From Acidimicrobiales bacterium (GTDB lineage Bacteria > Actinomycetota > Acidimicrobiia > Acidimicrobiales > JAUJNH01): a stretch of DNA of 64,000 nucleotides. The notes below the pieces were generated by a model. That model worked only from the letters and a program-made list of their open reading frames with translations, did no database searches and was not told the DNA's origin. The translations under genes were made by a program, and so were the position numbers. Of the stretch, positions 8,357-44,186 are shown piece by piece. The stretch covers positions 278,479-342,478 of the forward strand of contig JAUJNH010000003.1 in the NCBI GenBank assembly GCA_030448245.1, read 5' to 3'. Within the stretch, counting starts at the first letter, position 1. Each line of letters opens with the position of its first letter.

Positions 8357-8799
8357 CAATGCCTCGGGGGAGGGCCAAAGCCCTCCCCCGAACCCCCCTC
8401 CGGCGCCCTCGCCGCGGCACGCAGCTGTCGGGCGGGCGAAGCCCGCCCTCAAGCGGCTCAGACGCCGTGCCGCGCAAGCCTCGGGGGGAGGGCCAAAGCC
8501 CCCCCCCCCCCCCCCCCGAACCCCCTCCGGCGCAGCGTCCGCGGCACTTGAGCTGTCGGGCGGGCGGAGCCCGCCCTCAAGCGGCTCAGACGCCGCGCCG
8601 CTCGAGCCCCTACGCGAACATGCGGCCGGGGTGGAGCCCAAGACGGGTGGCGGCCTCCTGACCCGGAGCGAGTTCTCTGTCTGAGCGAAGGGCAGGGGGC
8701 CGCCGCCCGTCCGCCGCGGCGGCCTGACCCGGAGCGAGTTCTCTGTCTGAGCGGAAACCGGGGGGCCGCGCCATCCGCCGCGGGGTGAAAGCGGTCGGC
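8357..8799. repeat. Gene-free repeat region after selC: tandem ~117-bp repeat with C19 tract, and a 30-bp direct repeat
   Basis: This gene-free stretch holds two layers of repeats. Two imperfect copies of a ~117-130 bp unit start at 8361 and 8478. Each contains a GGGGGAGGGCCAAAGCCC hairpin-like head, a CCCCCTCCGGCG block, GTCGGGCGGGC/GCCCGCCC and CAAGCGGCTCAGACGCCG. The second copy carries an uninterrupted run of about 19 C (8499-8517). Further on, the 30-mer beginning CTGACCCGGAGCGAG occurs twice, identically, at 8658-8687 and 8724-8753. The hairpins could terminate selC transcription. I see no coding potential. Confidence 0.8.
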
Positions 8800-27214: not shown

Positions 27215-27970
27215 TTACCCGACCGGCACCCCGTCGAGGAAGTCGAGCAGGCGCTCGACCGCCTCTCGGACCTCAGCCCCGTTGCCCGAGGCCAGGCCGC
27301 TGCCGGCCCGGTCCGCCTCGACCACGTCTGCGTGGTAGGGGATCACCGCGGCCAGCTCCACCCCGTGCTCCGCGCACTGCTTCTCGAAGAACTCGGCATC
27401 GGCCGGCAGCCGAGCCTTGTTGCCCACCCCGACCGTCCGCGGGATCCCGAGCTCGTCGGCCAAGGCCACGGTGCGGGCCACGGTGATGACCGACTTGCGG
27501 CTCGGCTCCATGATCGCCACCAGGACGTCGGCGTAGGCCAGCGTCCCGCCCGAGCGGCTCAGGTGCTCGAGCCCGGCCTCCATGTCGACGAGCGTCACGT
27601 CGGCCTCCTCCTCGAGCGCGGCGCCGAGGATGCTGCGGACCGAGGCGTGGCTGCTGCAGGTGCAGCCGGCCCCGGCCTGGTCGACCCGCATGGCGGACAG
27701 GATGCGGACCCCGGACTCGGTGGTGCGCCCGTACTCGGCCAGCAGCTCCGTGGGACTCGTCCCGGCGTCGGTGCCGAGCACGAGGCGCCGGGGGATCACG
27801 GGTATGGCCTCGGCCTCTTCGAGCGTGAGGCCGAGCGAGATGCCGAGGTTGGGGTTCGAGTCGGTGTCGATGGCCACCACTCGCTTCCCGCGCTCGGCGT
27901 ACGCCTTGGAGATCAAGGCTGAGAGGGTGGTCTTGCCTACTCCGCCCTTGCCGACGATGCCGATCTTCAT
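27215..27970 (-). CDS. CooC-type ATPase with CxC motif (Ni-insertion-like)
   Basis: 251 residues. ATG 27970 overlaps the upstream stop (ATGA). Deviant Walker A GIVGKGGVGKTTLSALIS with signature Lys, AIDTDSNPNLGISLGL, VTLVDMEAGLEHLSRSGG (Walker B) and VGVGNKARLP. The Cys-x-Cys pair in GAGCTCSSHASVRSIL matches the metal-binding CxC of CooC1, which bridges the dimer and delivers nickel to CO dehydrogenase. No CODH is in the window, so here it may serve the hydrogenase or another Ni enzyme. A close paralogue with the same G-C-x-C-S-x-H motif is at 44183-44971. Confidence 0.88.
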   Translation of the reverse strand: MKIGIVGKGGVGKTTLSALISKAYAERGKRVVAIDTDSNPNLGISLGLTLEEAEAIPVIPRRLVLGTDAGTSPTELLAEYGRTTESGVRILSAMRVDQAGAGCTCSSHASVRSILGAALEEEADVTLVDMEAGLEHLSRSGGTLAYADVLVAIMEPSRKSVITVARTVALADELGIPRTVGVGNKARLPADAEFFEKQCAEHGVELAAVIPYHADVVEADRAGSGLASGNGAEVREAVERLLDFLDGVPVG

Positions 27971-28416
27971 GGTTCGCTCCCCGGGTTGAACGTAATGCTT
28001 GCTAGCACAGGGTCCCACGCTTCGCCTGCAGCTGCCATCCGCAGGGTGTTGAACGCCTCGTCGAGGTCGAAGCCCCAGAGGTCGAACTCCGAGTAGGTGA
28101 GCCCGAGGACCTGCAGCGCCACCGGGGTGGCGTACAGGGTGTTCTCGTCGCACAGCAGGTAGCCCGCGGCCTGCAGGGCGTCGGCCACCCGGGGCCGGGC
28201 CCAGGCGACGTCGTCGGGGAGGTCACGGCGGTGCAGCACCGTGCGCGGGTCGAGGCGGAGGGCGGCCGGCACATCGCCGTCCACCATCAGCACCGGGCCC
28301 TCGATGCCGAACGAGGCCGACCGCCCACTCGGAAGGCCAGCGGCGTACGCGGCGAGGACGGCGTCGTCCTCCTCCGGTGGCTGCTGGGCGCCCTCCGAGT
28401 AGAGCGGCAGGCCCAT
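27967..28416 (-). CDS. Hypothetical acidic protein co-transcribed with a CooC ATPase
   Basis: 149 residues, ATG 28416. Coupled to the CooC gene by a 4-bp overlap. Sequence features: acidic N-terminus (EEDDAVLAAYAAGLPSG), a strand-rich middle (FGIEGPVLMVDGDVPAALRL), and AGYLLCDENTLYATPVALQVL with GLTYSEFDLWGFDLDEAFN. No transmembrane segment. I do not recognise the family. Its coupling to a CooC ATPase suggests a partner or substrate adaptor (inference). Confidence 0.6.
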   Translation of the reverse strand: MGLPLYSEGAQQPPEEDDAVLAAYAAGLPSGRSASFGIEGPVLMVDGDVPAALRLDPRTVLHRRDLPDDVAWARPRVADALQAAGYLLCDENTLYATPVALQVLGLTYSEFDLWGFDLDEAFNTLRMAAAGEAWDPVLASITFNPGSEP

Positions 28417-31311: not shown

Positions 31312-31944
31312 TCAGCCCCCCAGAGGCCGACAGTCCGGCTCGAGCTGCGGATTGAGGAGGCTCCCGACGGGCAGCTTCCCGTCGATGCAGGCGGCCCGGA
31401 CGTCGGCCAGGTTGGCTGCCCTCCGGATGTTCCCGGTGTCACCCCTGACCTGGCTGACGATTGCGATGGTGCCGTCAAGGTTGGTGTTGATCTGCATGAC
31501 GCCGCGGTTGATCGACTGGGCCAGCGAGAGGATTCTGGCCACCGAGTTGTCGATGCCACCTGCCGTGCCACCGACCGTCCCTGCTGTGCCACCGATGTCA
31601 CTGGCGGTGCCACTGACGGTCGCAGCCGAGCCGTTGATCGACTTGGCCTTGACGTCGATGGACCGGGCCAGCGAGACGATCTGCTTCAGCTTCTCGTCGA
31701 GCGGGTCGGCCGACACCAGGATGCTGCTGGCCGACGCGTTGGTGGCGTCGAGGTCGAGCACGGCGGTGCTGTCGGCCTGGATGCCGATGGCCGACTGCTT
31801 GATGGTCTCGGCCTTCTTGTTGATCGCCTCCGCCGTCCACGCCACCCGGTTGACCAGCACGCCGGCGAGCAGGACGCTCACCAGCGTGATGACTGCCGTG
31901 TAGGCGGGGGCGGCGGCGCCCCGTTCGTCGCGCCTCATCGGCAT
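31312..31944 (-). CDS. Membrane-anchored Ile/Asn/Gly/Ser-repeat protein 4
   Basis: 210 residues; overlaps the upstream gene by 10 bp. Short charged N-terminus (MPMRRDERGAAAP), a transmembrane helix (AVITLVSVLLAGVLVNRVAW) and a ~150-residue helical or beta-solenoid-like region of ~7-residue steps with small residues (SINGSAATVSGTASDIGGT, AGTVGGTAGGIDNSVARI). The C-terminus carries two Cys (RAACIDGKLPVG...PDCRPLGG). Three similar proteins precede it in the same operon. The N-in orientation puts the repeats outside (inference). No known family. Confidence 0.75.
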   Translation of the reverse strand: MPMRRDERGAAAPAYTAVITLVSVLLAGVLVNRVAWTAEAINKKAETIKQSAIGIQADSTAVLDLDATNASASSILVSADPLDEKLKQIVSLARSIDVKAKSINGSAATVSGTASDIGGTAGTVGGTAGGIDNSVARILSLAQSINRGVMQINTNLDGTIAIVSQVRGDTGNIRRAANLADVRAACIDGKLPVGSLLNPQLEPDCRPLGG

Positions 31945-32591
31945 GGCCCAGCGTTGAGGTCCAGGCAGATCTGCCTGGCGTGCCCGTTGATCGTCTCGGA
32001 GCCGTTGAAGCTCAGAGCGTTGCTGCCACCCACCACGGAGTTGACGTTGCCCAGGTCATCCCGGATGGGGTTGGCCAGGCCGATGACGATGTCAACCCGG
32101 TTGTTGATGCCGGCCACGCCCACGCCTGGACTGCCTGATCTGCCCCGGATCTCGTCAGTAACCCCGGTCAGCGCGTTCACGTTGCTGCCGATGCTGCGGA
32201 CGCTGCCGGCGATGCCGCCGACACTGCCACCGATCCCCTTGACCGTCCCGTTGATCGCCTCCGCGTTGCGGTTGATCTCGGAGACCGTCCCATCGATGCT
32301 CTTGGCGGCGTCGAGGATGTTGCCGGCCTCAGCGCTGAGGTTCTCGGCGGCGACCCGGATCTTGCCGGCCGTCTCGTTGGTGAGGTCGAGCTTCGGCACC
32401 TCGTTGAGGTTCTGGTCGATCGGTGCCACCTCCTTGGTGATCACGACTACCCGCTCGTCGATCTGCTGCGCCGCAAGTGTCGTGCGGGTCAGCTGGACCA
32501 CGGCGAAGAGGGCGAAGCCCAGGAACAGGACGAGGTTGACGGCGACGATGCCGCCCTCGTCCTCCCGGCGGGGGTGCGGGCTCAGAAGCAT
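31935..32591 (-). CDS. Membrane-anchored Ile/Asn/Gly/Ser-repeat protein 3
   Basis: 218 residues, ATG 32591 overlapping the previous stop by 10 bp. N-terminal helix (IVAVNLVLFLGFALFAVVQL), then heptad-like repeats: KSIDGTVSEINRNAEAINGT, VKGIGGSVGGIAGSVRSIGS. It ends with a two-Cys segment (RQICLDLNAGPCR). The period of I-x-G-S/T units every ~7 residues resembles a coiled coil of trimeric-adhesin or MCP type rather than a globular domain. Third of four tandem paralogues. Confidence 0.75.
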   Translation of the reverse strand: MLLSPHPRREDEGGIVAVNLVLFLGFALFAVVQLTRTTLAAQQIDERVVVITKEVAPIDQNLNEVPKLDLTNETAGKIRVAAENLSAEAGNILDAAKSIDGTVSEINRNAEAINGTVKGIGGSVGGIAGSVRSIGSNVNALTGVTDEIRGRSGSPGVGVAGINNRVDIVIGLANPIRDDLGNVNSVVGGSNALSFNGSETINGHARQICLDLNAGPCR

Positions 32592-33313
32592 CCCGACCCC
32601 GGGGTGATGCCAACGGCGAGGGTGCCGGTGCTGCAGATGTTGAACAGGTTCTGGTTCACCTGGGCCAAGCCGGCGAGGATGCTGCGGGCGTCGGCCTCGG
32701 CCGGGGCGAGGATCCGGTTGGCGTTGTCCACTCGCTGGTGGATGTTCTGGACGCCGAGCTGGTTCGGATTACAAGGAGTGCCACCCCCGCAGTCACCTGC
32801 AGGCCGGTCGGCGGCCTCCAGGGTGCCACGGATCTGGGCTGCCTGGTTGTTGATCTGCTGCAGGACGCCCGAGGTGCCACCCAGCATGCCCGAGGTGCCC
32901 TGCAGGCTGGCCGAGGTGTCCTTGAGGGAGCCGTCGGTCGTGTTCAGCTTGTTGTCGATGTCGGTCAGTGCCGCGATGATCTGGTCGGCCTGCCCGGGAA
33001 TCGGCTTCAGTGCCGGGTCGATGGCGGCCAGGCTGGCGTTGATCCCCTGCACCTGGTCGGGCAGCGTCTTGGTGTCGCCGCCGGCGCCGGTGACGGCACG
33101 GTCGGCCACGCCGAGGTTGCCGTTGATCGACGCCAGCGAGTTGGTGATGGCGATGAGGTAGACGACCACGACGAGGGTCACCACGACGAGCAGGGCGATC
33201 CAGACCTTGAGCCAGCGGTCAAGGAATCGGCTGGTGTCCTCGGACGAGCTCCCGCCCCGTGCTGCGAATCCCGCCTCGTTGGCCGAGGGCCGGGTCCTGG
33301 TGGCTGTTGCCAT
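32582..33313 (-). CDS. Membrane-anchored Ile/Asn/Gly/Ser-repeat protein 2
   Basis: ATG 33313 with GGGGAG nine bases upstream, 243 residues. ~40 charged N-terminal residues, helix (VWIALLVVVTLVVVVYLIAI), repeats (SLASINGNLGVADRAVTGAG, QVQGINASLAAIDPALKPI, SASLQGTSGMLGGTSGVLQ) and a Cys pair in DCGGGTPCNPN besides the terminal pair (FNICSTGTLAVG...GSGCF). It differs from its siblings in the longer cytoplasmic part and the extra Cys loop. Same operon and family. Confidence 0.75.
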   Translation of the reverse strand: MATATRTRPSANEAGFAARGGSSSEDTSRFLDRWLKVWIALLVVVTLVVVVYLIAITNSLASINGNLGVADRAVTGAGGDTKTLPDQVQGINASLAAIDPALKPIPGQADQIIAALTDIDNKLNTTDGSLKDTSASLQGTSGMLGGTSGVLQQINNQAAQIRGTLEAADRPAGDCGGGTPCNPNQLGVQNIHQRVDNANRILAPAEADARSILAGLAQVNQNLFNICSTGTLAVGITPGSGCF

Positions 33314-33347
33314 TACTTGTTGCTCCCCTGTGTGATGTGCGGCTGGT

Positions 33348-33974
33348 TCATGGTCTGCAATCCGGGTCGGTCGGACCGTTGCCAACCGTCGCGGTCTTGT
33401 TCTGGATGCAGGCAGCGTTCTGAACGGCGTCGGCGGCTTGGCCGAGGATGTTGCGCACGTCGGTACGGACCGCCTCCGCGATGCCGATGGTGCCATCGAC
33501 GTTCCGGTCGATCTGAGCGACCCCGGCCCGGATCGACTCGACTCGCGGCACGATGGCCGAGGTGCTGCGTTCGATTCCGACAGCCGAGCCGTTGATGCTG
33601 CTCCCGCTGCCACCGATGGCCTTGGCCGAGCCGTTGATGGTGACGGCGCTCTCGGTGATCGACGTTGCCTTGTTGTTGATCGAGTTGGCCAGCCCGACGA
33701 TGACGTTCAGCTGGCCCTCGAGGGGCTTCGCCGTCTCCTCGATCGAGTTGCCGAGGTCGTTGGTCGAGTTCAGCTGGATGATCGCATCGGTCGACGCGTT
33801 GATCCCTCGACCCGTCTGGGCGATGTTCGACGCCTTGGCGTTGATGTTCCGGAGGTTGACCCAGGTCCTCGTCAGCAAGGCCACCGCAACGACCGTCACG
33901 ATCAAGACGAGGACGAGGAGGGCGACGTAGCCCTGGCCCCGCTCATCCTGTTGACGTAACTCCCGCACAGGCAT
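33348..33974 (-). CDS. Membrane-anchored Ile/Asn/Gly/Ser-repeat protein 1
   Basis: 208 residues, ATG 33974 preceded by GGGGGA. N-terminus RQQDERGQGYVALLVLVLIV recalls the GQ-type start of TadE/pilin-like helices, followed by helix to VALLTRTWV. Repeats: SNIAQTGRGINASTDAI, SINNKATSITESAVTINGS and IGGSGSSINGSAVGIERS. Terminal Cys pair (NAACIQNKTATVG...DPDCRP). It is the first of the four-gene run and lies 117 bp downstream of the ECF sigma gene, in the same direction. Confidence 0.75.
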   Translation of the reverse strand: MPVRELRQQDERGQGYVALLVLVLIVTVVAVALLTRTWVNLRNINAKASNIAQTGRGINASTDAIIQLNSTNDLGNSIEETAKPLEGQLNVIVGLANSINNKATSITESAVTINGSAKAIGGSGSSINGSAVGIERSTSAIVPRVESIRAGVAQIDRNVDGTIGIAEAVRTDVRNILGQAADAVQNAACIQNKTATVGNGPTDPDCRP

Positions 33975-34091: not shown

Positions 34092-34610
34092 TCACCCTGC
34101 CACTGCTGACCGCAGTCTGCGAGCCTGCACGCGCGCAGCGTGAAGCCGAGACATGACCGTCCCCACCGGGATGCCCTGTCGGCGGGCGATCTCGGCGTAC
34201 GGCAGCGACTCGACCTCGCGCAGCCACAGCGTCTCGCGCAGCACGGGCGAGAGGCGCTCGAGACCCGCCCACAGGGCGGTGAGCTCGAGCGACGCCAGCG
34301 CGGCGTCTTCCGGCGCCGCAGCGGGATCCGGCGGGAGGTCGGGCAGAGCTTCCTGCGCCCGACCCCGCCGTTGAACATCGAAGCAGCAGTTCCGGATGAT
34401 CGTGCGCAGCCAGGGTTCGGCCTTGCTCGGATCCGCTGCTCCCCACGCTCGCCACGCCCGCAACCACGCTTCCTGACACGCGTCCTCCGCCGTGTCCGGG
34501 CCGACGATGGCCCGGGCGTAGCGGAGCGCGTCACCGGAGAAGCGCCGGTGGAAGTGCTCGAACGTCGACGACACCGCCGGGCTCTCCGGCGAGGTCGGAA
34601 TCACTGGCAT
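34092..34610 (-). CDS. ECF-type sigma factor
   Basis: 172 residues, ATG 34610 preceded by AGGGGG. Region 2 (FEHFHRRFSGDALRYARAIVG, DTAEDACQEAWLRAWRAW, WLRTIIRNCCFDVQRR) and region 4 (LSPVLRETLWLREVESLPYA, EIARRQGIPVGTVMSRLHAAR) are clear. No anti-sigma factor gene is adjacent: the following genes encode repeat membrane proteins, the preceding one a putative selenoprotein. It may therefore be controlled by expression, or one of the neighbouring membrane proteins may act as its sensor (inference). Two adjacent Cys (NCC) lie in region 2. Confidence 0.92.
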   Translation of the reverse strand: MPVIPTSPESPAVSSTFEHFHRRFSGDALRYARAIVGPDTAEDACQEAWLRAWRAWGAADPSKAEPWLRTIIRNCCFDVQRRGRAQEALPDLPPDPAAAPEDAALASLELTALWAGLERLSPVLRETLWLREVESLPYAEIARRQGIPVGTVMSRLHAARVQARRLRSAVAG

Positions 34611-34646: not shown

Positions 34647-34823
34647 TTAGGTGTGCCGCACCTTCGTCTTGACGAAGTTGACGATCGTGTCAGTCGGCGT
34701 TGCGACCTTGTGCTTGGCCTTGACGTGATCCGCCACCTTGGCGATCAGTGCCTCTTCTGTACCGGCTTCGCCCTGCCAACGGCAGGCGTGGTCGGCATCC
34801 CTTCACCGAAACTGATAACCCAT
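34647..34823 (-). CDS. Candidate DUF1059-type selenoprotein (in-frame TGA = Sec at codon 7)
   Basis: 58 codons: ATG 34823, TGA at 34805-34803, TAA at 34649-34647. Translation is MGYQFR, Sec(TGA), RDADHACRWQGEAGTEE, then ALIAKVADHVKAKHKVATP and a basic end. Apart from the TGA this is a normal DUF1059-like small protein: the family has a Cys at this place, a second Cys seven residues later (C14 here) and an H-x4-H pair (H33, H38), probably a metal-binding site. AAAGGA lies upstream of the ATG. The frame stays open and similar to the family on both sides of the TGA, so it is not a frameshift. A SECIS-like hairpin follows, and a tRNA-Sec gene exists 26 kb away. A TGC-to-TGA mutation remains possible. 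Confidence 0.7.
34769..34788 (-). promoter_or_regulatory. Putative bacterial SECIS hairpin
   Basis: On the coding strand the stem CG-CCTGCC pairs with GGCAGG-(bulged G)-CG around the loop GTT. The apical loop begins with G 22 nucleotides after the TGA. Bacterial SECIS elements need a small stem-loop just downstream of the UGA with a G among the first loop bases and a spacing of roughly 16-37 nt; this one complies. Confidence 0.6.
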
Positions 34824-34868: not shown

Positions 34869-35156
34869 TCAGCGCCCGCGAGCGCTCAAGGGGCGACGGG
34901 CGGGCGGCGCCGGGCGTCCGGCGCCAGCGACGACATCACCTAACGCGCCTTCGATGGCCTTGACGTCGCCGGCGATGCCGGTGAGCACGTCTCCGACCGG
35001 TTCGCACTGGTAGGCGATGGCACGCACCCCGATGAGCACGGTGCCCAGGGTGAAGCTCACGTCCTTCAACGTGTAGGCGATGATGATCAGGTACGCGGCG
35101 ATCGCGCCCACGAGGACGGCGACCAGCACCAGCGTGACGATGGCGGCGGCGGGCAT
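34869..35156 (-). CDS. Small single-pass membrane protein, paralogue of 28421-28678
   Basis: 95 residues, ATG 35156 with AAGGAGAG eight bases upstream. N-terminal helix (IVTLVLVAVLVGAIAAYLIII), then LKDVSFTLGTVLIGVRAIAYQC and VLTGIAGDVKAIEGALGDVV, with a basic/Pro tail. The GVRA-x-x-x-QC core is shared with 28421-28678. The segment GDVLTGIAGDVKAIEGAL has the same I-x-G spacing as the four repeat proteins, hinting at a common helical packing. Function unknown. Confidence 0.7.
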   Translation of the reverse strand: MPAAAIVTLVLVAVLVGAIAAYLIIIAYTLKDVSFTLGTVLIGVRAIAYQCEPVGDVLTGIAGDVKAIEGALGDVVAGAGRPAPPARRPLSARGR

Positions 35157-35190: not shown

Positions 35191-35451
35191 TCACAGGAGG
35201 CGCTTCAGCGCTGCCCCGTAGCGGCCGACGAGCCCGAGGGCGGTGCCGGTGAGCTCCTTGGTCGTGACGAGCTTGGGAACGGCATCCAGCGTGCCGGTCA
35301 ATCCGACGCCGTGGACGAGGATGTCGTCGGCGTACTCCTTGATGAGCATGGTCGGGCGGAGCACCCGATTGGCGAACAAGAGCACTACCGGGATGACGAC
35401 GAACGCCAACACCGCGTTACCTAGCCACCATAGGACCACGTCCACCCCCAT
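35191..35451 (-). CDS. Small single-pass membrane protein
   Basis: 86 residues, ATG 35451. Helix LWWLGNAVLAFVVIPVVLLFA near the N-terminus, then basic and amphipathic segments (NRVLRPTMLIKEYADDILVHG, TLDAVPKLVTTKELTGTALG). Starts a probable operon with 34869-35156, 34 bp apart. No family recognised. Confidence 0.65.
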   Translation of the reverse strand: MGVDVVLWWLGNAVLAFVVIPVVLLFANRVLRPTMLIKEYADDILVHGVGLTGTLDAVPKLVTTKELTGTALGLVGRYGAALKRLL

Positions 35452-35516: not shown

Positions 35517-36380
35517 TTACGCAAGCACCTCAACCCCGCGGACCTGGTTGACCGAGACGTGCTCGACCATGCCGGTGGACGATCGCAGCTCGAGCCGGCC
35601 CAGCGGGTCGACGGCGGCGGCGTGGGCACGCATCTCCCCGCGGGGCACCAGGCGCAGCTTCAGGTTGTGGCCCAGGGTGCTGCAGCGCTTCTCGTAGACG
35701 GCGAGCGGACCAGCGACGCCCTCGCTCAGCTCATCCGTCCGCTGGTCGAGCTGCGCAGCGATGGCGTGGAGGAGCTCGTCGCGCCGCGCCGGGTCGGTCT
35801 CTCCTGTCACGTCGAGGCGGACGGTGACCACCGCGACCCGGACCTTGCCCGGCCCGAGCTGGACGTCGGCCCGCACCGACGCCCTGGTGGAGCCGTCCTG
35901 GGCGTCGACGACCCGGTCCGGCCACGCCGTGCGGACGGCCGAGCCTCCCGCCGCCTCGATCCCGTCGGCCACGGCGAGCGCGCCCACCAGCCACGGCACG
36001 TCGGCCTCCTCGGCTCGCAGCGCCGGCCGCAGCACCACGGCGAAGGCCAGGGTCGACGACGAAGGCACCGTCCAGAGCTGGCCGAGCCGCCCGATCGGGC
36101 TGACCTCGTGGTTCACGACGACGGTCGCTCCGCTGGGTGCCTGCTCCAGGTTGGCCCAGCCGAGCGCCATGGCTCCGGCCGAGACCGCCGCCTCGTAGCG
36201 CCGGATGGGCCGGGCCGTGTCTCCCGCCGGTGCATCGGGACTCGCTTGACCCCCGTCTTCCCTCGTCGGCTCCCCCGGCTCGCCTGACGGCGCGCCTCCC
36301 CCGCTCCTCAGTCCAGACGGCGGCCGCTCGCCCCTCGCCGGCTCGCTCGCTGCGCTCGCGGGGTCGACTGGATCGCTCAC
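35517..36380 (-). CDS. Biotin/lipoate-ligase-fold protein of the hydrogenase operon
   Basis: GTG 36380 overlaps the previous stop (GTGA), 287 residues. After a ~60-residue disordered Pro/Gly-rich start (part of it encoded by a dispersed repeat) comes a domain with the BirA/LplA pattern: TVVVNHEVSPIGRLGQLWTV, PSSSTLAFAVVLRPALR, LVGALAVADGIEAAG and WPDRVV. The GRxGRxW-type biotin-loop is reduced to GRLGQLW and the catalytic Lys of the WPND-like strand is not evident, so activity is doubtful. C-terminal part (VSVNQVRGVEVLA) resembles the small BirA C-domain. Last gene of the hhyS operon. Role unknown. Confidence 0.6.
   Translation of the reverse strand: MSDPVDPASAASEPARGERPPSGLRSGGGAPSGEPGEPTREDGGQASPDAPAGDTARPIRRYEAAVSAGAMALGWANLEQAPSGATVVVNHEVSPIGRLGQLWTVPSSSTLAFAVVLRPALRAEEADVPWLVGALAVADGIEAAGGSAVRTAWPDRVVDAQDGSTRASVRADVQLGPGKVRVAVVTVRLDVTGETDPARRDELLHAIAAQLDQRTDELSEGVAGPLAVYEKRCSTLGHNLKLRLVPRGEMRAHAAAVDPLGRLELRSSTGMVEHVSVNQVRGVEVLA
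36333..36361 (-). repeat. Dispersed GC-rich repeat, copy 2 (inverted, inside a gene)
   Basis: Exact reverse complement of 20532-20560 over 29 bases. Here it lies in the 5' coding part of the ligase-like gene and encodes part of its disordered linker (ASAASEPARGE). Confidence 0.75.
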
Positions 36381-36805
36381 TTGGCCAGCCTCGAGACGAG
36401 GCGGTCGATCCGCCAGTCCCCGGCCTCCTGGCTGAGCTCCACCGATGCAGCCGGCAGCCCCGCCCCCAGGAGCGGATCCGGCACCGGGACCATCAGGACG
36501 ACGCGGGCCGTGCTGTCCTCGAGGCCGTCCAGGACGACGTCGTACTCGAGGGTGTCGACATCGACGGTGAGGAGGTCGGCTCGGAAGCCGTTGACCAGGT
36601 CGCTCCGGAACTGGTCGAGCTCGGCCTGGGTGGCCGTGCCGTCCCGCAGCCTGGCGGCCAGGGCCTCGGGCATCCCCCGCGAGGTGGCGATGCCCATCAC
36701 CACCCGGTGCGCCTCGGTGCTCAGCAGGTCCCACACCAGGTGGTGCTCCCCCCACGCCACCGCCTGCACGAAGGTGCGGGCCGCCTCCTCCGGGCTCGCC
36801 GCCAT
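36377..36805 (-). CDS. Hypothetical protein of the hydrogenase operon (NTF2/DUF-like)
   Basis: 142 residues; ATG 36805 shares its A with the upstream TGA. Sequence SPEEAARTFVQAVAWGEHHLV, WDLLSTEAHRVVMGIATSRG, DVDTLEYDVVLDGLEDSTARV and SVELSQEAGDWRIDRLVSRL. The closing W-R-I-D-R-L strand with an early helix resembles NTF2-like or DUF4878-type accessory domains. Cytoplasmic. Coupled to the TPR gene before and the ligase-like gene after it. Confidence 0.6.
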   Translation of the reverse strand: MAASPEEAARTFVQAVAWGEHHLVWDLLSTEAHRVVMGIATSRGMPEALAARLRDGTATQAELDQFRSDLVNGFRADLLTVDVDTLEYDVVLDGLEDSTARVVLMVPVPDPLLGAGLPAASVELSQEAGDWRIDRLVSRLAK

Positions 36806-38175
36806 CAGGGCCGCTCCCAACCCCGGGCGTAGAGGAAGTCGCGCACGAACATGCGCTGTGGCAACCCGAGCTGCGCGCCCACGGCGTCGTCGAGGGCCCG
36901 GTCGGCCACCTCGGCGTCCTCCGGACTCAGCTGGCGGAGCGCGGCCAGGCGGGCCTCCAGCGAGACCTGGAGGAACTCGTTCGGCAGGTGCACGAGGACC
37001 CCCAGCTCGGCCTCGATGAGGACCCGCGCTCGTTCCGGGCCGGTCCAGTACTCGGCCAGGGCGAGCTCGAGGAGGGCCTTGTGGCGCGTGGGCTCGGGGA
37101 GGGCGAGGTAGCGAAGCAGCCGGTCGCGCATCAGGGGGACCCGGTCCTCAGGGAGGGCGTCGGCGACCAGCGAGACGAAGTGATGGGCCCGCCCGGGTGT
37201 CGGCGCCCATGACGTGAGGCGTTCCTCCACCCGCATCAGGCTGACGAACGCCTGCTCGCGCTGGGCCTGGTGGAGGCGGGTGTCGAGGGCGGCCAAGGCA
37301 TCTTCGTAGCATGCCAGCGCCAGGCGGAGGTTGGTGACCCCGTCGAGGCGCTCGACGGCGTGGCCCAGGTTGTACTTGGCCAGGGCGTGCTGGAACGGGA
37401 ACCCCGTCCTGGTGAAGACGGTGAGCGACTCGCCGAACGAGTCGGCCGCCTCCTCGAGCAGCGGGGTGGCCGCCTCCGGCTGGAGCGTCGCCAGCGTCAT
37501 GTTGGCGACGCCGATGCTGAAGTACAGCAGGCCGTAGTGGTAGGCCGTCTCGCCGGGGTCCACCTCGGGCAGCGCCAGGCTGTAGTCGTCCAGGGCAGCC
37601 CGGAGCTGCTCCTCTCCGCCCGCCGCCACCCGGGCCTGACCACGGTTGAGCAGCGCAGCCACCCACCCGCGCTGCCCGTCCGGCGTCGTCGTGTCGAACA
37701 GCTCGATCGCCTTTGTGAACTGCTCGATCGCCTCGAGCGACGCCCCCTGCGCCGCCCGGGCCAGCCCGAGGTTGTTCAGCGCGGCCGCCCGCTCGTCCGG
37801 CCGTCCGTGAGGCTCGAGCAGGGTGACCGCCCTCTCGAACAGCCGGACGGCCTGGTCGATGTTGCCGAGGCTGCGGTGGGCGGCGCCGGCTGCGTTGACG
37901 ACCCGGGCGTGCTCGATCGGGTCGAAGCGGGGATCGAACAGGCTGGCGGCGACGTCGTAGCTGGCCAGGGCCCGGCGGAGACTCTCGTCCAGCGGCCCCG
38001 TGGGGTACTCGGCGTAGGCCAGCCCCAACCGGTAGGCCAGGGTGGCGTGCTGGAAGGGCTGGGACGCCTTGCTGGTGGCGGCCAGCTGCGACTCGAGCGC
38101 TCGGATGACCGCCTCCCGATCGACGTCGGCGGCCTCCGTCGGCTGGGACTGCGTCTGGGGCTCGGATTGGGACAC
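36805..38175 (-). CDS. TPR-repeat protein of the hydrogenase operon
   Basis: I choose GTG 38175 (GGGGAG seven bases upstream), 456 residues. About seven tetratricopeptide helices pairs: ATLAYRLGLAYAEYPTG, ARVVNAAGAAHRSLGNIDQAV, ERAAALNNLGLARAAQGASL, EAIEQFTKAIELFD, and KYNLGHAVERLDGVTNLRLA. Such proteins occur in actinobacterial group 1h hydrogenase operons, where they may hold subunits or maturation factors (inference from context). No transmembrane part. Five bp after the protease stop. Confidence 0.8.
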   Translation of the reverse strand: MSQSEPQTQSQPTEAADVDREAVIRALESQLAATSKASQPFQHATLAYRLGLAYAEYPTGPLDESLRRALASYDVAASLFDPRFDPIEHARVVNAAGAAHRSLGNIDQAVRLFERAVTLLEPHGRPDERAAALNNLGLARAAQGASLEAIEQFTKAIELFDTTTPDGQRGWVAALLNRGQARVAAGGEEQLRAALDDYSLALPEVDPGETAYHYGLLYFSIGVANMTLATLQPEAATPLLEEAADSFGESLTVFTRTGFPFQHALAKYNLGHAVERLDGVTNLRLALACYEDALAALDTRLHQAQREQAFVSLMRVEERLTSWAPTPGRAHHFVSLVADALPEDRVPLMRDRLLRYLALPEPTRHKALLELALAEYWTGPERARVLIEAELGVLVHLPNEFLQVSLEARLAALRQLSPEDAEVADRALDDAVGAQLGLPQRMFVRDFLYARGWERP

Positions 38176-38179
38176 GGCG

Positions 38180-38683
38180 CTACTCCCCGCTTCCGACGGG
38201 CGCACACAGTCGTTCGAGCTGGGCGCCCACCTCGGTGATCGCCACGTCGACGGCTGCCGCGACCTCGGGTGACAGGTCCATGCCCAGGGCCTCGGCGTCG
38301 ACGGGCTGGCAGCCGACCAGGAGCACCTGGTCGGGCAGGGCGCCCATGGCCTTGGCCATCATCATCACCCGAGACGGGGTGGCGAGGTGGGTGTCGGCGA
38401 TCAGCTGGTGCCGCTGGTCGTGGCTCATCAGGTGGGCGTCCGGGATGTCGGGCTCGATGAGCATGATGGTGCCCGGCGGGCGACCCCGGTCGACGGTGTC
38501 CATCACGATCAGCGCGTCGTAGCCCTCCATCAGCTCCTGCACCAGGGTCATGCCGCTGATGCCGGTCTCCATCACCCGAACCCCGTCGGGCAGGTCCATG
38601 GCCTCGAGCCGCCGGGCCACGACCACGCCGAAGCCGTCGTCCGACCGCAGGGTGTTGCCCACGCCGGCCACCAGGACCCTCAC
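38180..38683 (-). CDS. Hydrogenase maturation protease (HycI/HupD family)
   Basis: GTG 38683 (GTGA overlap with the gene before), 167 residues. Opening VLVAGVGNTLRSDDGFGVVV is the family signature with the metal-binding Asp/Glu region, followed by METGISGMTLVQELMEGYDA, LIVMDTVDRGRPPGTI and PDAHLMSHDQRHQL (second and third Ni ligands, Asp and His). It removes the C-terminal peptide after the last active-site His of the large subunit once nickel is in place. The substrate HhyL (40345-42225) ends with a 20-residue extension after that His. Confidence 0.92.
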   Translation of the reverse strand: MRVLVAGVGNTLRSDDGFGVVVARRLEAMDLPDGVRVMETGISGMTLVQELMEGYDALIVMDTVDRGRPPGTIMLIEPDIPDAHLMSHDQRHQLIADTHLATPSRVMMMAKAMGALPDQVLLVGCQPVDAEALGMDLSPEVAAAVDVAITEVGAQLERLCAPVGSGE

Positions 38684-39180
38684 GGGTGGGCGCCCTGAGC
38701 AGCCTCGGCGGCCCGCAGGGCGTACCCCCGCACGGTCCACCAGGCGATGTACTCCTCGAACTGGCGCCAGCCGGCGACGTCGACGGCCTCGCGGTAGTTG
38801 TCGGCCCGGTTCGACAGCTCGGACGTGATGATCCGGTCCAGCGCCTCGAAGGTGAGGTCGGCAGCCCCGAGCAGGTGGGGAGCCGGGTCGCCCCCACGCA
38901 GCTCGGCTGCGATCTCGCTGGTCCTGGTCTCGAGCTCGTCGAGGTCGATGCCCTCGTCAGCCGGATCACTGGCGACGCCAGCGGCCTGCTCCTCGACCCG
39001 GCGGAGGCAGTAGCCCTTGAGCAGCGCCTCGCCCGCCCAGCGGGCGAGCTCCACCATTGGCTGGTCGGCCTCCTCCTGGGCGACGGCCCGGGTCCGGATG
39101 CGGGTGGCCGTCCTGGTGAGCGGGTGGGCCTGGGCCAGGGCCCGGGCCTTGTACGCCCGTTCGGCGGCGTCGCCCGCCAT
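38680..39180 (-). CDS. Hypothetical protein of the hydrogenase operon
   Basis: 166 residues from ATG 39180, which shares its A with the NifU-like stop (TGATG). Mainly helical: RAYKARALAQAHPLTRTAT, PMVELARWAGEALLKGYCLRR, TFEALDRIITSELSNRADNY and WRQFEEYIAWWTVRGYALRA. No signal or membrane segment. I do not know the family; being between nfu-like and protease genes with overlaps on both sides, it is likely a maturation accessory. Confidence 0.65.
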   Translation of the reverse strand: MAGDAAERAYKARALAQAHPLTRTATRIRTRAVAQEEADQPMVELARWAGEALLKGYCLRRVEEQAAGVASDPADEGIDLDELETRTSEIAAELRGGDPAPHLLGAADLTFEALDRIITSELSNRADNYREAVDVAGWRQFEEYIAWWTVRGYALRAAEAAQGAHP

Positions 39181-39809
39181 CAGGTCTTGCGGCGGATCTG
39201 CAGCAGCGGGCCCTGCGGCGCGGGTGGCGGCTCGGGGACGCCCCCGGGCACGGTCACGCACTCGAGGTCGGCGGCGTCGGGGTTGATCGACGTGGCGTCA
39301 CCCTCGAGCACCTCCATGCGCCGGAAGTTCGGCCACCCCTCGCGCAGCGCCGCCTCGACCCCGTAGGTGAGGGTGGCCGACGAGCTGGGGCACCCGTCGC
39401 AGGTCCCCTTCAGCCGCAACGTGACGACGCCGTCGACCACGGACTCGACCTCGATGGCGCCGCCGTGGGACTCGACCAGCGGCCGCACCGACTCGAGGGC
39501 GGCGAGCACGGCGCTCTCGGCCTCGTCGGTGGCCTCGGGCCCCTCGCCGAGGCCATAGGCGCCCAACAGCGTGCCGGTGATGGGGTCGCCAGCGGCCGAC
39601 TCGAGGAAGATCTCACCGCGCCACTGCCTGGTCATCTCGATCAGGCGGCCGAGGCCGTCGCGGTGGAAGGCGTCGACCCAGTCGAGCAGTTCGGTCACCT
39701 TGTCGGCCACGGCCGGGTCGGGGTGCTCCGAGAGCTCCTCGGCCAGCTCGCCGATGCGGTGCAGCACCTGGTCGTAGCCCAGCGTCTGCTCGTCGTCCTG
39801 CGCGCTCAT
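39180..39809 (-). CDS. NifU/NfuA-like Fe-S scaffold protein
   Basis: 209 residues. N-terminal helical part (LHRIGELAEELSEHPDPAVA), then the NifU C-terminal domain: VLAALESVRPLVESHGGAIEV, VDGVVTLRLKGTCDGCPSSS and TLTYGVEAALREGWPNF. The Cys-x-x-Cys (C-D-G-C) binds the transient 4Fe-4S cluster between two subunits. Probably supplies clusters for the hydrogenase small subunit. Coupled by 4 bp to the HycI-like gene upstream. Confidence 0.9.
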   Translation of the reverse strand: MSAQDDEQTLGYDQVLHRIGELAEELSEHPDPAVADKVTELLDWVDAFHRDGLGRLIEMTRQWRGEIFLESAAGDPITGTLLGAYGLGEGPEATDEAESAVLAALESVRPLVESHGGAIEVESVVDGVVTLRLKGTCDGCPSSSATLTYGVEAALREGWPNFRRMEVLEGDATSINPDAADLECVTVPGGVPEPPPAPQGPLLQIRRKT

Positions 39810-40348
39810 GGGGTCACCTCGCTCGGTGGCTTGGCCACCTCCTCTTGGACCATGGCCAACACCGTATCCACCACGCCGTCGACCTCGGGGCTGAAGCCGA
39901 GGCCGAAGGAGCGGTCACCGGGTTCGATCTCGATGACCACGGTCCCTTCGGGGAAGCCCTTCCAGTACCGCACGACGGCCAACGTGTGGTCGAGGTCGAT
40001 GATGCCGCCCGCCGCCTCACCGAGGCGCTCGTGCACCTCTGCGTCCGGCGGCGGGGTGAGGTCGAGCACGTACCTCCGAATGGTGCCCGGCGGGTCGACC
40101 TCGCGGGGCATGCACCCCACGAGGACGACCTTCGACGGGCCGATCTCGACGATCCGGTCCAGCACGCGGTGCGCCGCGAACGACAGGTCCTCGACCAGCA
40201 CGTGCTCCGGCCAGTCGAGGCCCTCGACCCGGCGCACGAACTGCGTGCCGAAGTCGAGGTCTCGAAGCCAGGGCAGCCCGACGCCCCCAACGAGCACCGG
40301 GCCGCCTGTTGTCTGCCTCTCAGTCGGGCCGCCGGGGCCCGGGATCAC
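39806..40348 (-). CDS. Degenerate HycI-like protein
   Basis: GTG 40348 overlaps the hhyL stop, 180 residues. The fold follows the hydrogenase endopeptidase (VLVGGVGLPWLRDLDFGTQF, VEDLSFAAHRVLDRI, VVLVGCMPREVDPPGTI, RYVLDLTPPPDAEVHERLGEA and FGLGFSPEVDGVVD). The signature G-N-x-L-x-x-D-D reads G-L-P-W-L-R-D-L-D, and the Asp/His ligands expected in HybD are only partly kept. It may be a non-catalytic partner of the canonical protease at 38180-38683 or a chaperone of HhyL. Confidence 0.75.
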   Translation of the reverse strand: MIPGPGGPTERQTTGGPVLVGGVGLPWLRDLDFGTQFVRRVEGLDWPEHVLVEDLSFAAHRVLDRIVEIGPSKVVLVGCMPREVDPPGTIRRYVLDLTPPPDAEVHERLGEAAGGIIDLDHTLAVVRYWKGFPEGTVVIEIEPGDRSFGLGFSPEVDGVVDTVLAMVQEEVAKPPSEVTP

Positions 40349-42225
40349 TCGAGGGTGCAGCCGCAGCTGTTGACCTCACGCACGATCGTGCCGATACCCG
40401 TGTCGATGTGGGTCGTGCACGGCATGCAGGGGTCGAAGCTGCGGATGGTCCGGAGGATGTCGATCCCCTTGATGTCCTCGTCCCTGACGCTCTCGAGGAT
40501 CGGGGTGCCGACGACGGCCTCCTCGTAGGGGCCGGGGGTGCCGAACGGGTCGCGAGGAGCGGCGTTCAGCGTCGACGGCGTGGTGATCTGGTAGTTGAGG
40601 AGCTTGCCCTTGTCGATGTGCATGTGGTGCACGAGCCAACCGCGGCTCGCCTCCCAGAACCCGACACCGATGCGCTCGTCCTTCGGCACCTTGAACGGGG
40701 TGGAGATGGCCGTCTCACCCCGGCGCCAGTACTCGAGGGCCTTGAGCATGATGTTCATGCCGACTGCGGCCGAGTTGGCCATGGCGTAGGCACGGGCCCG
40801 GTTGCGCTCCATGGCGTTGAGGGTGCGGGGCACCTTCCAGTACAGCTCGTCCTCGGGCAGCTCGTGGCGGGGCATCACCATGCGCATGCCGTCGCCGGTC
40901 GACTCCATGAACGGGTTGTCGACCGTCTGCCCAGCCAGGGACGTCACCCACACGCTGCCGTAGGCACCGGTCTCGATCGACTGGCGGTCCCACCGGGGAG
41001 CGGTGTCCCAGGTGTACTTCTCCTTGAAGTTCTTGCCCGTCGGCCGGGGCAGGGTCCGCTTGTTCCACGGGTGGTGGGGCGACAGCGGGTTGCCCAGCGG
41101 GTCGGTCTTGAACCGCTGCGGAGCGCCCTTGGTCCAGTCGTCGTAGAACGAGTGCTCGATGAACTCCTCGAAGCCGACGTTGATGTCGGTCAGGTTCGTG
41201 GTGACCAGCTTGCCCTCGATCACCATGCCAGGCACGTTCCAGCGAGCGTTGCCCCACTCGTTCATGTTGGCGTAGGTGGCGTCGTAGACCTCGGAGTTGT
41301 CGAACACGCCGGTCTGGGCGATGTTCGTCGGCCGGGCCCCGACCTGCTCGTACTCGGGGTTGGCCTCGAGGAAGAAGTCCATGAGGTCGTCCCAGATCCG
41401 GGTGATGACCTTGCAGAAGTCGAAGATCTTGCCCAGCTGGGTGTAGAACTCGTTGAAGCTCGACACGCTGATCGTGCAGGACATGCCGCCCGGGACGATG
41501 GTCGACGGGTGCGGGTACTTGCCCAACATGATCTGACACATCACGCGGCCCACCCGGGTCCACTCGAGCGCCTCGAGGTAGATCCGCCCCGTCAGGGGGT
41601 TCAGGGCATCCATGATGTCCTTGATGGTCCGGTAGCCGTGGATGTCACCGTGGCGGCACAGGGTCTTCTCGGCCAGGGTCACCAGCTCGGGGTTGGTGAT
41701 CGACACCAGCGAGGTCGAGTAGTCGGGCCCGGCCAAGAGGCCGAGGTGCAGCGGGCGGTCGTAGAAGTACTCGCCGACCTCACCCAGGTTCCGGCACTCG
41801 ACGCCCAGCGGCGGCGGGCAGATGCCGAAGGTCATCTCGGTGGCCAGGGCCGACACGGTGGCGTGCACGCCGCCGCACACGCCACAGGCCCGGGAGCTGA
41901 TGTCGATGGCGTCCCGGGGGTCGCGACCCTCGAGGATGATCTCGTAGCCCCGGAAGAGGGAGGCGATCGAGTGGCAGTCGACCGCCTTCTTCTCCTCGAG
42001 GTCGAGGACGGTGTGGACGGCGAGGGAGCCGGCCACCCGGGTCATCGGGTCGATGTTCCAGTCACGCAGCTTGGGCGGGGCGCCGAGCTTGGCGCCGGGG
42101 CCGTCGGCCGGGCGGGCGTAGCTCTTCAGCTCGACGGGCTCAAAGGCGTAGGGGTCCTTGACCCCCTCCTTCAGCTGGGCCTTGCCCGCGCTGTCGAACT
42201 CGATGGGAAGGTTCTTGAAGCACAT
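40345..42225 (-). CDS. hhyL: [NiFe]-hydrogenase large subunit, actinobacterial (group 1h-like)
   Basis: 626 residues, ATG 42225. The NiFe site Cys pairs are both present: L1 SSRACGVCGGVHATVSA (C114, C117) and L2 RSFDPCMPCTTH (C600, C603, His 606). Twenty residues follow the His (to SCGCTLE) and would be cut by the protease. All four ligands are Cys, not Sec. Sequence style (PMTRVAGSLAVHTVLDLEEK, LYWKVPRTLNAMERNRARA) and the absence of Tat or membrane partner genes fit high-affinity, O2-insensitive uptake enzymes of group 1h that burn trace H2. Lies 35 bp after hhyS. Confidence 0.93.
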   Translation of the reverse strand: MCFKNLPIEFDSAGKAQLKEGVKDPYAFEPVELKSYARPADGPGAKLGAPPKLRDWNIDPMTRVAGSLAVHTVLDLEEKKAVDCHSIASLFRGYEIILEGRDPRDAIDISSRACGVCGGVHATVSALATEMTFGICPPPLGVECRNLGEVGEYFYDRPLHLGLLAGPDYSTSLVSITNPELVTLAEKTLCRHGDIHGYRTIKDIMDALNPLTGRIYLEALEWTRVGRVMCQIMLGKYPHPSTIVPGGMSCTISVSSFNEFYTQLGKIFDFCKVITRIWDDLMDFFLEANPEYEQVGARPTNIAQTGVFDNSEVYDATYANMNEWGNARWNVPGMVIEGKLVTTNLTDINVGFEEFIEHSFYDDWTKGAPQRFKTDPLGNPLSPHHPWNKRTLPRPTGKNFKEKYTWDTAPRWDRQSIETGAYGSVWVTSLAGQTVDNPFMESTGDGMRMVMPRHELPEDELYWKVPRTLNAMERNRARAYAMANSAAVGMNIMLKALEYWRRGETAISTPFKVPKDERIGVGFWEASRGWLVHHMHIDKGKLLNYQITTPSTLNAAPRDPFGTPGPYEEAVVGTPILESVRDEDIKGIDILRTIRSFDPCMPCTTHIDTGIGTIVREVNSCGCTLE

Positions 42226-42260
42226 GGATGTCGTAGCCTCTCGTGAGTCTCTGTCGAGTC

Positions 42261-43616
42261 TTAGTTGTAGGACTCGTTGCGGTGCTGCATCTTCGAGTAG
42301 AACTTGTGCACGACCTTCATCGACCCCTTGGGGGTCGTCCGTCCACGGGCCCAGCCGCTCGGGATTTCTCCGTCCCAGCGGGGGGTCAGGTTCTTGTCGA
42401 CCCGGGTCACGTTGCGCATGCGCCGGATCATGCCGCCAGCCACCCGGCTGGTGTTGCTCGAGACCATCGAGCCGGGGGACACCCCGTAGAAGGGCGAGAA
42501 CTTGTCGGGGAAGCCCGGCATCGTGCAGCCGATGCAGATGCCGCCGATGTTCATGCAGCCGCCGTGACCGTCGACGTTGCCGCGCTCGGCGATGTTGCAC
42601 TGGACCACGGGGCCCCAGCAGCCCAGCTCGACGAGGCACTCCTTGTCGCCGTACTGCTCGGCGAACACGCCTTCCTCGTAGTACCCGGCTCGGGGGCAGT
42701 GGCGGTGGACGGTCTCGCCGAACAGCCAGGCCGGACGGCCGAGGTCGTCGAACTCGGGCAGCGGGGCGAGGCCGTTGAGGAACAGCAGGACGGCGGTGGC
42801 GGTCTCGATGTAGTTGTCGCCGATGGGGGCGCAACCAGGGACGTTGACCACGGGGACGCCAAAGGCCGACCGGTAGTCCTTGCCCAGGTAGTCCATGACG
42901 GCCATGGCGTTGGTGACGTTGTTCTTGGCGGCGGGGATCCCGCCCCAGGAGGCGCAGGTGCCGATGGCCACGACGGCGGCGGCGCCAGGCGACAGCCGGT
43001 CGAGCCACTCGAGGCTGGTGATCTGGCGCCCCGTGTTGGGGTCGTCGCCCAGGCCCATCCAGAACCCGTCACCGGAGATCGACTCGTCCATGATCGAGCC
43101 CTCCCACGTGATGACGTAGGGGGCGTCGAGCTCGCCGCGCTCGGCCATGAAGAGGTTGTGCATCCAGTCGGGGCCGACCTCGGTCGACACGACCGTGTGG
43201 ATCAGCTCGACCCGGGGCAGCCCGGGGAGGATGCCGGCGAGCAGGTGCTCGACCCGCGGGTGGGTGGCGGCGGTGACGGCGACGGTGCAGCCGTCGCAGG
43301 AGGCGCCCACCAACCAGATGAGGTAGATCTTCTTGAGCGGCCCGATGTTCAGCGTGTCGTCAGGCTCGACGAGCGCCCGGCTGCGGATGCCGATGGGCGC
43401 CATCGGGTCGAGCGGGTCGTACCCGTCGATGAGGCCGACGCCAGACTTCTTCGTGCCGTTGAACGGCTCGAGGGTGCCGTGCGGGTACACGGACGGCACG
43501 TTCTCCTCGTGGAAGGTGGCTTGGACCCGCTTGGTGTACTCCTGCGGTTCTGCGGTGATCGTCGGACGCCCAGGCGCCCGGCGGGCCACTCGCCTGGAAG
43601 GTTCGTCAACTGCCAT
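42261..43616 (-). CDS. hhyS: [NiFe]-hydrogenase small subunit, actinobacterial (group 1h-like)
   Basis: 451 residues, ATG 43616 with AAGGGGG upstream. First proximal-cluster pair LVGASCDGCTVAVT (C107, C110), then VAIGTCASWGGIPAAKN, VPGCAPIGDNYIE, further Cys in HRHCPRAGYYEEG, LVELGCWGPVVQCN, GGCMNIGGICIGCTMPGFPD. An Asp directly follows C107; group 1h enzymes are known for an Asp among their proximal ligands, though I cannot tell which residue. About 100 residues precede the first Cys, longer than usual. No Tat signal with a hydrophobic segment, so the enzyme is cytoplasmic or membrane-facing. First gene of the operon. Confidence 0.93.
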   Translation of the reverse strand: MAVDEPSRRVARRAPGRPTITAEPQEYTKRVQATFHEENVPSVYPHGTLEPFNGTKKSGVGLIDGYDPLDPMAPIGIRSRALVEPDDTLNIGPLKKIYLIWLVGASCDGCTVAVTAATHPRVEHLLAGILPGLPRVELIHTVVSTEVGPDWMHNLFMAERGELDAPYVITWEGSIMDESISGDGFWMGLGDDPNTGRQITSLEWLDRLSPGAAAVVAIGTCASWGGIPAAKNNVTNAMAVMDYLGKDYRSAFGVPVVNVPGCAPIGDNYIETATAVLLFLNGLAPLPEFDDLGRPAWLFGETVHRHCPRAGYYEEGVFAEQYGDKECLVELGCWGPVVQCNIAERGNVDGHGGCMNIGGICIGCTMPGFPDKFSPFYGVSPGSMVSSNTSRVAGGMIRRMRNVTRVDKNLTPRWDGEIPSGWARGRTTPKGSMKVVHKFYSKMQHRNESYN

Positions 43617-43763: not shown

Positions 43764-44186
43764 GTGCCCACGCACACGACTGACGAGCCTCAGGGCGGCC
43801 TCCCGCGCAACTACCTGCGGGCCACGCTGCTCCTCCTCATCGGCGAGGCGCCGGCCCACGGCTACGACCTGCTCGAGCAGGTCGCCCAGCTCGGGCTGGG
43901 CAAGGTCGACCCGGGCGGGCTCTACCGGGCCCTGCGGGTGATGGAGCGCGACGGCCTGGTCGGCTCCACGTGGGAGCACTCGTCGGCGGGTCCGGCCCGC
44001 CGCACCTACACCCTGCTGCCCGATGGAACCGACTGGCTGCACGCCTGGGCGGGTGCCCTGCGGGAGAGCCACCGGTACCTCTCTATCTACCTCAGCCGGT
44101 ACGATGCCATCATCGAACGCCAGAACCACCCCCCTGTCGCGCCCGTCGAGAACGTCCCGCCCGGCCCGCCGGGCCCCACCCCGTGA
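43764..44186 (+). CDS. PadR-family transcriptional regulator
   Basis: GTG 43764, 140 residues. Winged helix at residues ~14-90: YLRATLLLLIGEAPAHGYDL, LEQVAQLGLGKVDPGGLYRA, LRVMERDGLVGSTWEH and ARRTYTLLPDGTDWLHAWA, the PadR signature. It is divergent from hhyS and overlaps a CooC ATPase gene by 4 bp, so it probably controls hydrogenase and the Ni-processing ATPase. C-terminal dimerisation part is short and Pro-rich. Confidence 0.9.
   Translation: MPTHTTDEPQGGLPRNYLRATLLLLIGEAPAHGYDLLEQVAQLGLGKVDPGGLYRALRVMERDGLVGSTWEHSSAGPARRTYTLLPDGTDWLHAWAGALRESHRYLSIYLSRYDAIIERQNHPPVAPVENVPPGPPGPTP

Follow-up and report, generated by a model that had tools for sequence, protein, structure and literature searches.

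A DUF1059 gene with a predicted selenocysteine codon in a [NiFe]-hydrogenase gene cluster of an Acidimicrobiales bacterium

In the 64,000-nucleotide stretch of Acidimicrobiales DNA that we analyzed (the window), a [NiFe]-hydrogenase gene cluster includes a DUF1059 gene with an in-frame UGA. With good confidence, we read this UGA as a selenocysteine codon and the gene as the source of a small protein with a likely metal site and a likely function in support of the hydrogenase. The first element of this reading, translation of the UGA at codon 7 as selenocysteine, is very probable on comparative sequence evidence. Membership of the gene in the hydrogenase cluster is an addition to the original prediction, which had proposed a new small selenoprotein.

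A DUF1059 frame with a recurrent UGA

The gene lies on the minus strand at 34647..34823 and comprises 58 codons, from an ATG at 34823-34821 to a TAA at 34649-34647. The original prediction named no strand; otherwise the frame is as originally described, with a single TGA at codon 7 (34803..34805, minus strand) and with Cys14, His33, and His38 all present. Alignment places the UGA at the first conserved cysteine of the family. With UGA read as U, the product is MGYQFRURDADHACRWQGEAGTEEALIAKVADHVKAKHKVATPTDTIVNFVKTKVRHT; with UGA read as Cys, it scores 47.5 bits with PF06348 (DUF1059), for which the cut-off is 21.1 (E 2e-12). Because of this score and the recurrence of the UGA in 35 genes, the frame and its UGA are beyond chance.

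Recurrence was seen at several taxonomic scales. The source genome contains three DUF1059 genes on three contigs, each with one TGA at the same codon. Surveys found DUF1059 matches in 62 of 395 genomes of the class and in 75 of 396 genomes of the phylum, and the interior stop was TGA in every row that had one (8/8 and 20/20, respectively). No interior TAA or TAG occurred in the DUF1059 matches listed for these 395 class and 396 phylum genomes. A scan of 84,980 species, each represented by one genome, used patterns that were built from eight UGA genes and so favored near kin; it gave 13 loci, three of them the G330 and G225 loci again, with TGA at codon 7 in 13/13. Altogether, UGA stands at the same codon in 35 distinct DUF1059 genes from about 25 genomes. 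A first clade, that of the window gene, has 18 distinct genes in 13 genomes, and a second, divergent clade has 17 genes in 12 genomes. The UGA-containing homologs that were to be sought in related genomes are therefore present and recurrent.

The protein encoded around the UGA is also conserved. Cys14 is kept in all 35 UGA genes (displaced by one residue in two of them), the U-x6-C spacing is constant except that two genes have one residue more, and both histidines are kept in 34, the exception being G610b, with Cys in place of His33. Past the UGA, from codon 23 to the end, pN was lower than pS in all of the nine hand-chosen pairs of UGA genes (ratio, 0.12-0.30), which marks a constrained protein and not a pseudogene. 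These results bear on the possibility that the UGA is a nonsense mutation in a broken gene or an assembly miscall of TGC or TGT. Such an origin might be suggested by the mere six residues ahead of the UGA and by seven relatives with other residues at the site, yet it would have to account for UGA at one codon in 35 distinct genes and on three separate contigs of a single genome, for the lack of TAA and TAG in the listed matches, and for purifying selection on the downstream protein. We consider it exceedingly unlikely.

Most relatives have cysteine where the window gene has UGA. In the tree set of 115 rows, 80 of which were non-UGA, both cysteines were present in 73 of the 80; six had Gly, Arg, or Trp at the site and one lacked the second cysteine. 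Homologs with cysteine at residue 7 had been named as a check on the selenoprotein reading; they form the large majority of these rows, and the six other residues are the part that does not conform. The only invariant columns among 58 aligned rows were 7, 14, 33, and 38, in an alignment whose rows were hand-chosen and omitted P0005, P0015, P0038, P0039, P0040, P0047, P0081 (Gly), P0058 (no Cys14), and others. The first six of these omitted rows are full-length metagenomic DUF1059 proteins that are near the UGA forms and carry the Gly, Arg, or Trp at the selenocysteine site. They group among the UGA rows in the tree. Gly, Arg, and Trp codons are each one base change from TGA, a pattern that fits decay of the UGA. 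Glycine is also found at the site in P0081, a relative of the Cys kind, and P0058, which groups among the Cys rows, has Cys7 and lacks Cys14. In some relatives, namely the six near the UGA forms and P0081, the site so appears to be dispensable or decaying. As to whether the UGA form arose once, the tree (115 rows, 58 columns) needs at least four changes between Cys and Sec, with many weak forks and 55 of its 112 inner branches drawn open. In two genomes, G508 and G489, a UGA gene is followed in tandem by a Cys-DUF1059 copy (loci L105 2420-2808 and L109 5515-5892).

The UGA could instead be a real stop, be read through with an ordinary amino acid, or be bypassed by a downstream restart. A leader of six codons is compatible with this, and short database proteins of relatives begin at codon 26-27. 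Such tails, 31 to 33 amino acids long and starting at about codon 26-27, made up 36 of the 120 matches listed (159 in total); one of them, P0093, named DUF1059 domain-containing protein, is identical to the tail of a UGA gene in L047. In the window gene, however, the first in-frame start codon past the UGA is a GTG at codon 30, and a product restarted there therefore loses Cys14. The UGA always falls at the Cys position, and orthologs at the same operon place have cysteine there. UGA ends nine of the 12 window genes checked and is therefore not a reassigned codon, and the genome has tRNA-Sec, selA, and selD. Taken together, these points make termination, ordinary readthrough, or restart very unlikely, and we retain selenocysteine as the reading of codon 7.

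Selenocysteine machinery and the RNA sequence past the UGA

The tRNA-Sec that the original prediction had placed on the same contig was found within the window at 8264..8357 on the plus strand, with anticodon UCA. The presence of selA, selB, and selD in the genome had also been left to be checked. Matches to selD and selA exceeded the family cut-offs in all four genomes considered (the source genome, G138, G330, and G225), and SelB in the source genome is supported by a match at E 2.8e-80. A similar E value for SelB in G138, 2.8e-83, corresponds to 280.1 bits against a cut-off of 242.25, which 221 of 395 class genomes passed. A formate-dehydrogenase-like frame with one TGA occurred in the same four genomes (4/4). 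That of the source genome (G000:C4:324894-325634; L079, L097) has codons for HSATV after the in-frame TGA. Cysteine homologs, recurring UGA homologs, and selenocysteine machinery genes in the genome thus all support the selenoprotein reading, under which SelB and tRNA-Sec would insert selenocysteine at codon 7, possibly assisted by mRNA signals within roughly 70 nt past the UGA.

Among the 12 second-clade genomes, selA was matched in 11 and exceeded the cut-off in 10. The genome with a UGA gene and no selA match was G750 (78% complete), and G625 had a selA fragment only. We considered SelA as a marker of UGA forms and set it aside. Besides the 11 of 12 second-clade genomes, 23 of 30 picked genomes that have DUF1059 without the UGA form also gave a match, a contrast that is not sharp because the selenocysteine trait is common in the phylum. 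As a separate observation (L043 970-1146 and L062; G225:C36), a DUF1059 gene of the Cys type lies about 100 nt upstream of a same-strand selD match, which itself contains one TGA.

The original prediction had drawn attention to a SECIS-like hairpin downstream of the UGA. This candidate (34769..34788, minus strand) has the stem CGCCUGCC/GGCAGGGCG with one bulged G and a GUU loop, whose first G is 23 nt past the UGA. The stem, loop, and spacing are present and lie within published rules for bacterial SECIS elements, which place a G at the opening of the loop 16-37 nt away (PMC13188914, in its available text), but the structure is no better than that of synonymous sequences. In 38% of the synonymous variants of the window gene, a strict hairpin of equal or better quality arose, and the 45 nt past the UGA showed no folding advantage over such variants (z +0.37), so the folding proposed as a check revealed no excess stability. 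The clades gave a similar picture. All 18 first-clade genes fit a loose version of the published SECIS model. The strict hairpin was found in 13 of these 18 against 10.3 expected from synonymous sequences, and in one of the 17 second-clade genes against 1.0 expected. The five first-clade genes with Ser17 lacked the strict hairpin. Folding energy was not below that of synonymous sequences in 18 UGA genes (mean z +0.82) or in 31 Cys genes (+0.86). The second-clade sequences that lie on the plus strand at their loci (nine of 17) gave no common hairpin and shared two pairs only. With the strict test at chance and folding energy no lower than that of synonymous sequences, we dropped the hairpin as proof of a SECIS element.

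Codon choice past the UGA is a better RNA sign than the hairpin. Measured against a reference of 12 hand-chosen frames pooled (4,611 codons), the 18 first-clade UGA genes avoid preferred codons just past the UGA, with mean log ratios of -0.80 in codons 8-19, -0.54 in codons 20-31, and -0.07 downstream. Six Cys paralogs show no such avoidance (-0.11, +0.05, and +0.10). Among arginine codons of the 18 UGA genes, the share of CGC and CGG was 0/36 in codons 8-22 versus 37/43 downstream, in genes that are kin, so that a Fisher test overstates the contrast.

Predicted metal site and hydrogenase cluster

The predicted model of the protein (pLDDT, 86.4; 58-row alignment) has a strand at 3-6, a short turn, a strand at 17-20, and helices at 23-38 and 45-54. 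In this model, residues 7 and 14 fall between the strands and His33 and His38 lie on a helix, so that the fold would run from a strand through a knuckle with residues 7 and 14 to a second strand and a helix with the two histidines. We take this layout to be that of a beta-beta-alpha zinc finger. A search of the PDB gave no significant fold match and none that backs a named metal-binding fold. The four conserved positions (7, 14, 33, and 38) present a C2H2-type ligand pattern, and "predicted small metal-binding protein" is the name that some DUF1059 database records bear. From the pattern and the model, we consider it fairly likely that Sec7, Cys14, His33, and His38 hold a metal ion. Hydrogenases and formate dehydrogenases already provide examples of selenium that ligates a metal, according to the available text of PMC13188914.

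Sec7 might, alternatively, be a redox center, for example, in a Sec7-Cys14 selenenylsulfide, and not a metal ligand. That most uncharacterized selenoproteins are likely redox proteins (PMC13188914, available text) speaks for this, as does the U-x6-C spacing kept throughout the 35 genes, with one extra residue in two. However, the two histidines are as strictly kept as the two cysteines, and a plain thiol pair needs none. We give a purely redox role an appreciable but minority chance and continue to favor a metal site.

The gene is preceded by two small genes and, farther upstream, by those of the hydrogenase, all on the minus strand. SMP2 (34869..35156; 95 amino acids) ends 45 nt upstream of the DUF1059 gene, and SMP1 (35191..35451; 86 amino acids) lies 34 nt upstream of SMP2. 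Both have a hydrophobic stretch near the N terminus, belong to no Pfam family, and are conserved partners. Next are a frame with a biotin/lipoate ligase (BirA-like) match that is weak and below the Pfam cut-off (35517..36755), a TPR protein (36805..38205), a hydrogenase maturation protease of the HycI/HybD type (38180..38740), and a NifU-domain Fe-S protein (39180..39809). A second maturation-protease-like protein (39806..40348) scored 46.7 bits, just under the cut-off of 47.45, and had no Pfam match. The hydrogenase large subunit (40345..42291) has no in-frame UGA, and the small subunit follows at 42261..43616. P-loop ATPases of the CbiA/ParA kind (CooC-like) are encoded at 43970..44971 (plus strand) and 27215..28090 (minus strand). 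We looked at UGA codons in the large-subunit matches of G640 and G499 as well and rejected them, since none fell at a ligand position; they lay ahead of the start or where the alignment was faulty.

Directly downstream of the DUF1059 gene is a sigma-70-family sigma factor, ECF-like by its domains (34092..34610, minus strand), which stands between it and four genes for repetitive coil-like proteins (31312..33974, minus strand: 33348-33974, 32582-33460, 31935-32591, and 31312-31944), with an N-terminal hydrophobic stretch judged by eye. None of the other mapped hydrogenase-cluster loci showed a sigma factor. A distant one (28%; L098 3971-4456) occurs in G658, some 300 nt downstream from a UGA-DUF1059 gene that is not part of the triplet described below. 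Runs of coil-like proteins, none with a Pfam family over the cut-off, are found beside the UGA-DUF1059 triplet in several genomes (L047, L049, L051-L053, and L131-L133).

Published group 1m [NiFe]-hydrogenase clusters list HybD, an Fe-S protein, CooC, TPR, a BirA homolog, and a DUF1059 domain, and they typically hold two one-helix membrane proteins of 82-92 amino acids (PMC9561532, available text). By gene content alone, the window cluster matches this description.

SMP1, SMP2, and DUF1059, with DUF1059 last, form a triplet at 16 of the UGA loci examined, nine in the first clade and seven in the second. The same triplet with Cys-DUF1059 was found at eight loci among those examined, which included only G582 of the Cys-type loci from the phylum search. 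A TGC or TGT codon was seen in six of the eight (G314, G058, G247, G257, G582, and G388), and cysteine was identified by translation in G288 and G197. On the G212 contig, only the second of the two small proteins (SMP2) is present. A search of 80 chosen genomes matched the hydrogenase large subunit in 27. The match was on the contig of a UGA gene, about 2.5 to 20 kb away, in seven genomes (G000, which is the source genome, and G138, G330, G658, G610, G523, and G499) and on the contig of a Cys gene in six (G314, G058, G247, G257, and G582 at 4-6 kb; G388 at 20 kb).

The neighborhood might nevertheless be inherited linkage without function, with the protein having a general metal or stress role. 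The two other UGA copies of the source genome (L045 and L046) are away from hydrogenase genes, and G225 and G547 have UGA copies, none of them on a contig with this hydrogenase. Because such copies stand outside the cluster, they show that the DUF1059 protein is not hydrogenase-only. Against linkage alone, the triplet turns up in different classes amid flanking genes that have been rearranged (in G247 it has the opposite orientation to the remaining genes), and the published account of group 1m independently lists DUF1059 with the two one-helix proteins. We think linkage alone rather unlikely and lean, by a little, toward a role tied to the hydrogenase. In that role, the protein may work beside SMP1 and SMP2 during hydrogenase maturation or electron transfer, as an accessory that handles metal or redox state: it may load or guard a metal, or it may pass on redox state together with the two membrane proteins. 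In the clusters with Cys forms, sulfur would take the place of selenium in the same task. More speculatively, UGA-DUF1059 could depend on selenium to act as a metallochaperone for a high-affinity hydrogenase or as its redox guard, with a Sec-Cys-His-His "seleno zinc finger" that loads or protects the enzyme. Many Actinomycetota of soil and groundwater would then need selenium to take up H2. We hold this extension to be doubtful; if it is true, H2 uptake relies on selenium via a protein that gene-finding programs truncate.

Comparison with known systems

A 2026 inventory of prokaryotic selenoproteins comprises 119 families (PMC13188914, Table 1), and DUF1059/PF06348 is absent from that table, in keeping with the novelty originally claimed. 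No NCBIfam model matched the window protein. A selenocysteine form of DUF1059 was not found in the literature searched, though a report may have escaped us, and none is mentioned in the available text of publications naming DUF1059 (PMC9561532 among them). The same literature gave no match for a small metal-binding protein with selenocysteine, for a selenocysteine zinc finger or zinc-ligand selenoprotein, or for an Acidimicrobi- selenoprotein with a UGA codon. On group 1m hydrogenases it yielded PMC9561532 alone. A search for selenocysteine together with high-affinity atmospheric hydrogenase returned only PMC4378227, whose topic is formate dehydrogenase.

The gene adds a predicted selenoprotein family missing from the current inventory, with up to three copies per genome and a spread beyond one class of Actinomycetota. 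Part of the annotation of DUF1059 is explained as well, in that some short database stubs are the tails of UGA genes. The finding sets selenium next to a hydrogenase cluster of a type that has been proposed to use atmospheric H2. Furthermore, this family of unknown function offers a natural exchange of selenocysteine and cysteine at one operon position, through which the role of the residue can be tested directly.

With the 119 known families, as far as the available text describes them, the window gene shares the exchange of cysteine and selenocysteine, the UGA, and the selenocysteine machinery. SaoB, SaoC, and UXX-star are discussed there as having selenocysteine in presumed metal sites, and MbdU is so named (PMC13188914). 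The RNA signal was compared with the SECIS element of Escherichia coli fdhF. The heptamer UGCAGGU, at +15 in fdhF, occurs at +19 in 10 of the 18 first-clade genes, five of which lack the strict hairpin; unlike fdhF, the other eight have UGCCGUU, and the stems differ. Among the listed selenoprotein families, FmdB is, we presume, a zinc ribbon. With group 1m hydrogenase clusters, the window shares adjacent small- and large-subunit genes, a HybD-type protease, an Fe-S protein, a CooC-like ATPase, TPR and BirA-like frames, two small hydrophobic proteins, and DUF1059, but the available text of PMC9561532 has no mention of selenium (0 occurrences of "selen"). With the DUF1059 family itself (PF06348), the window protein shares its length, the C7/C14/H33/H38 pattern, and a Pfam score well above the cut-off; it differs in that most relatives found have Cys7, whereas the window group has UGA.
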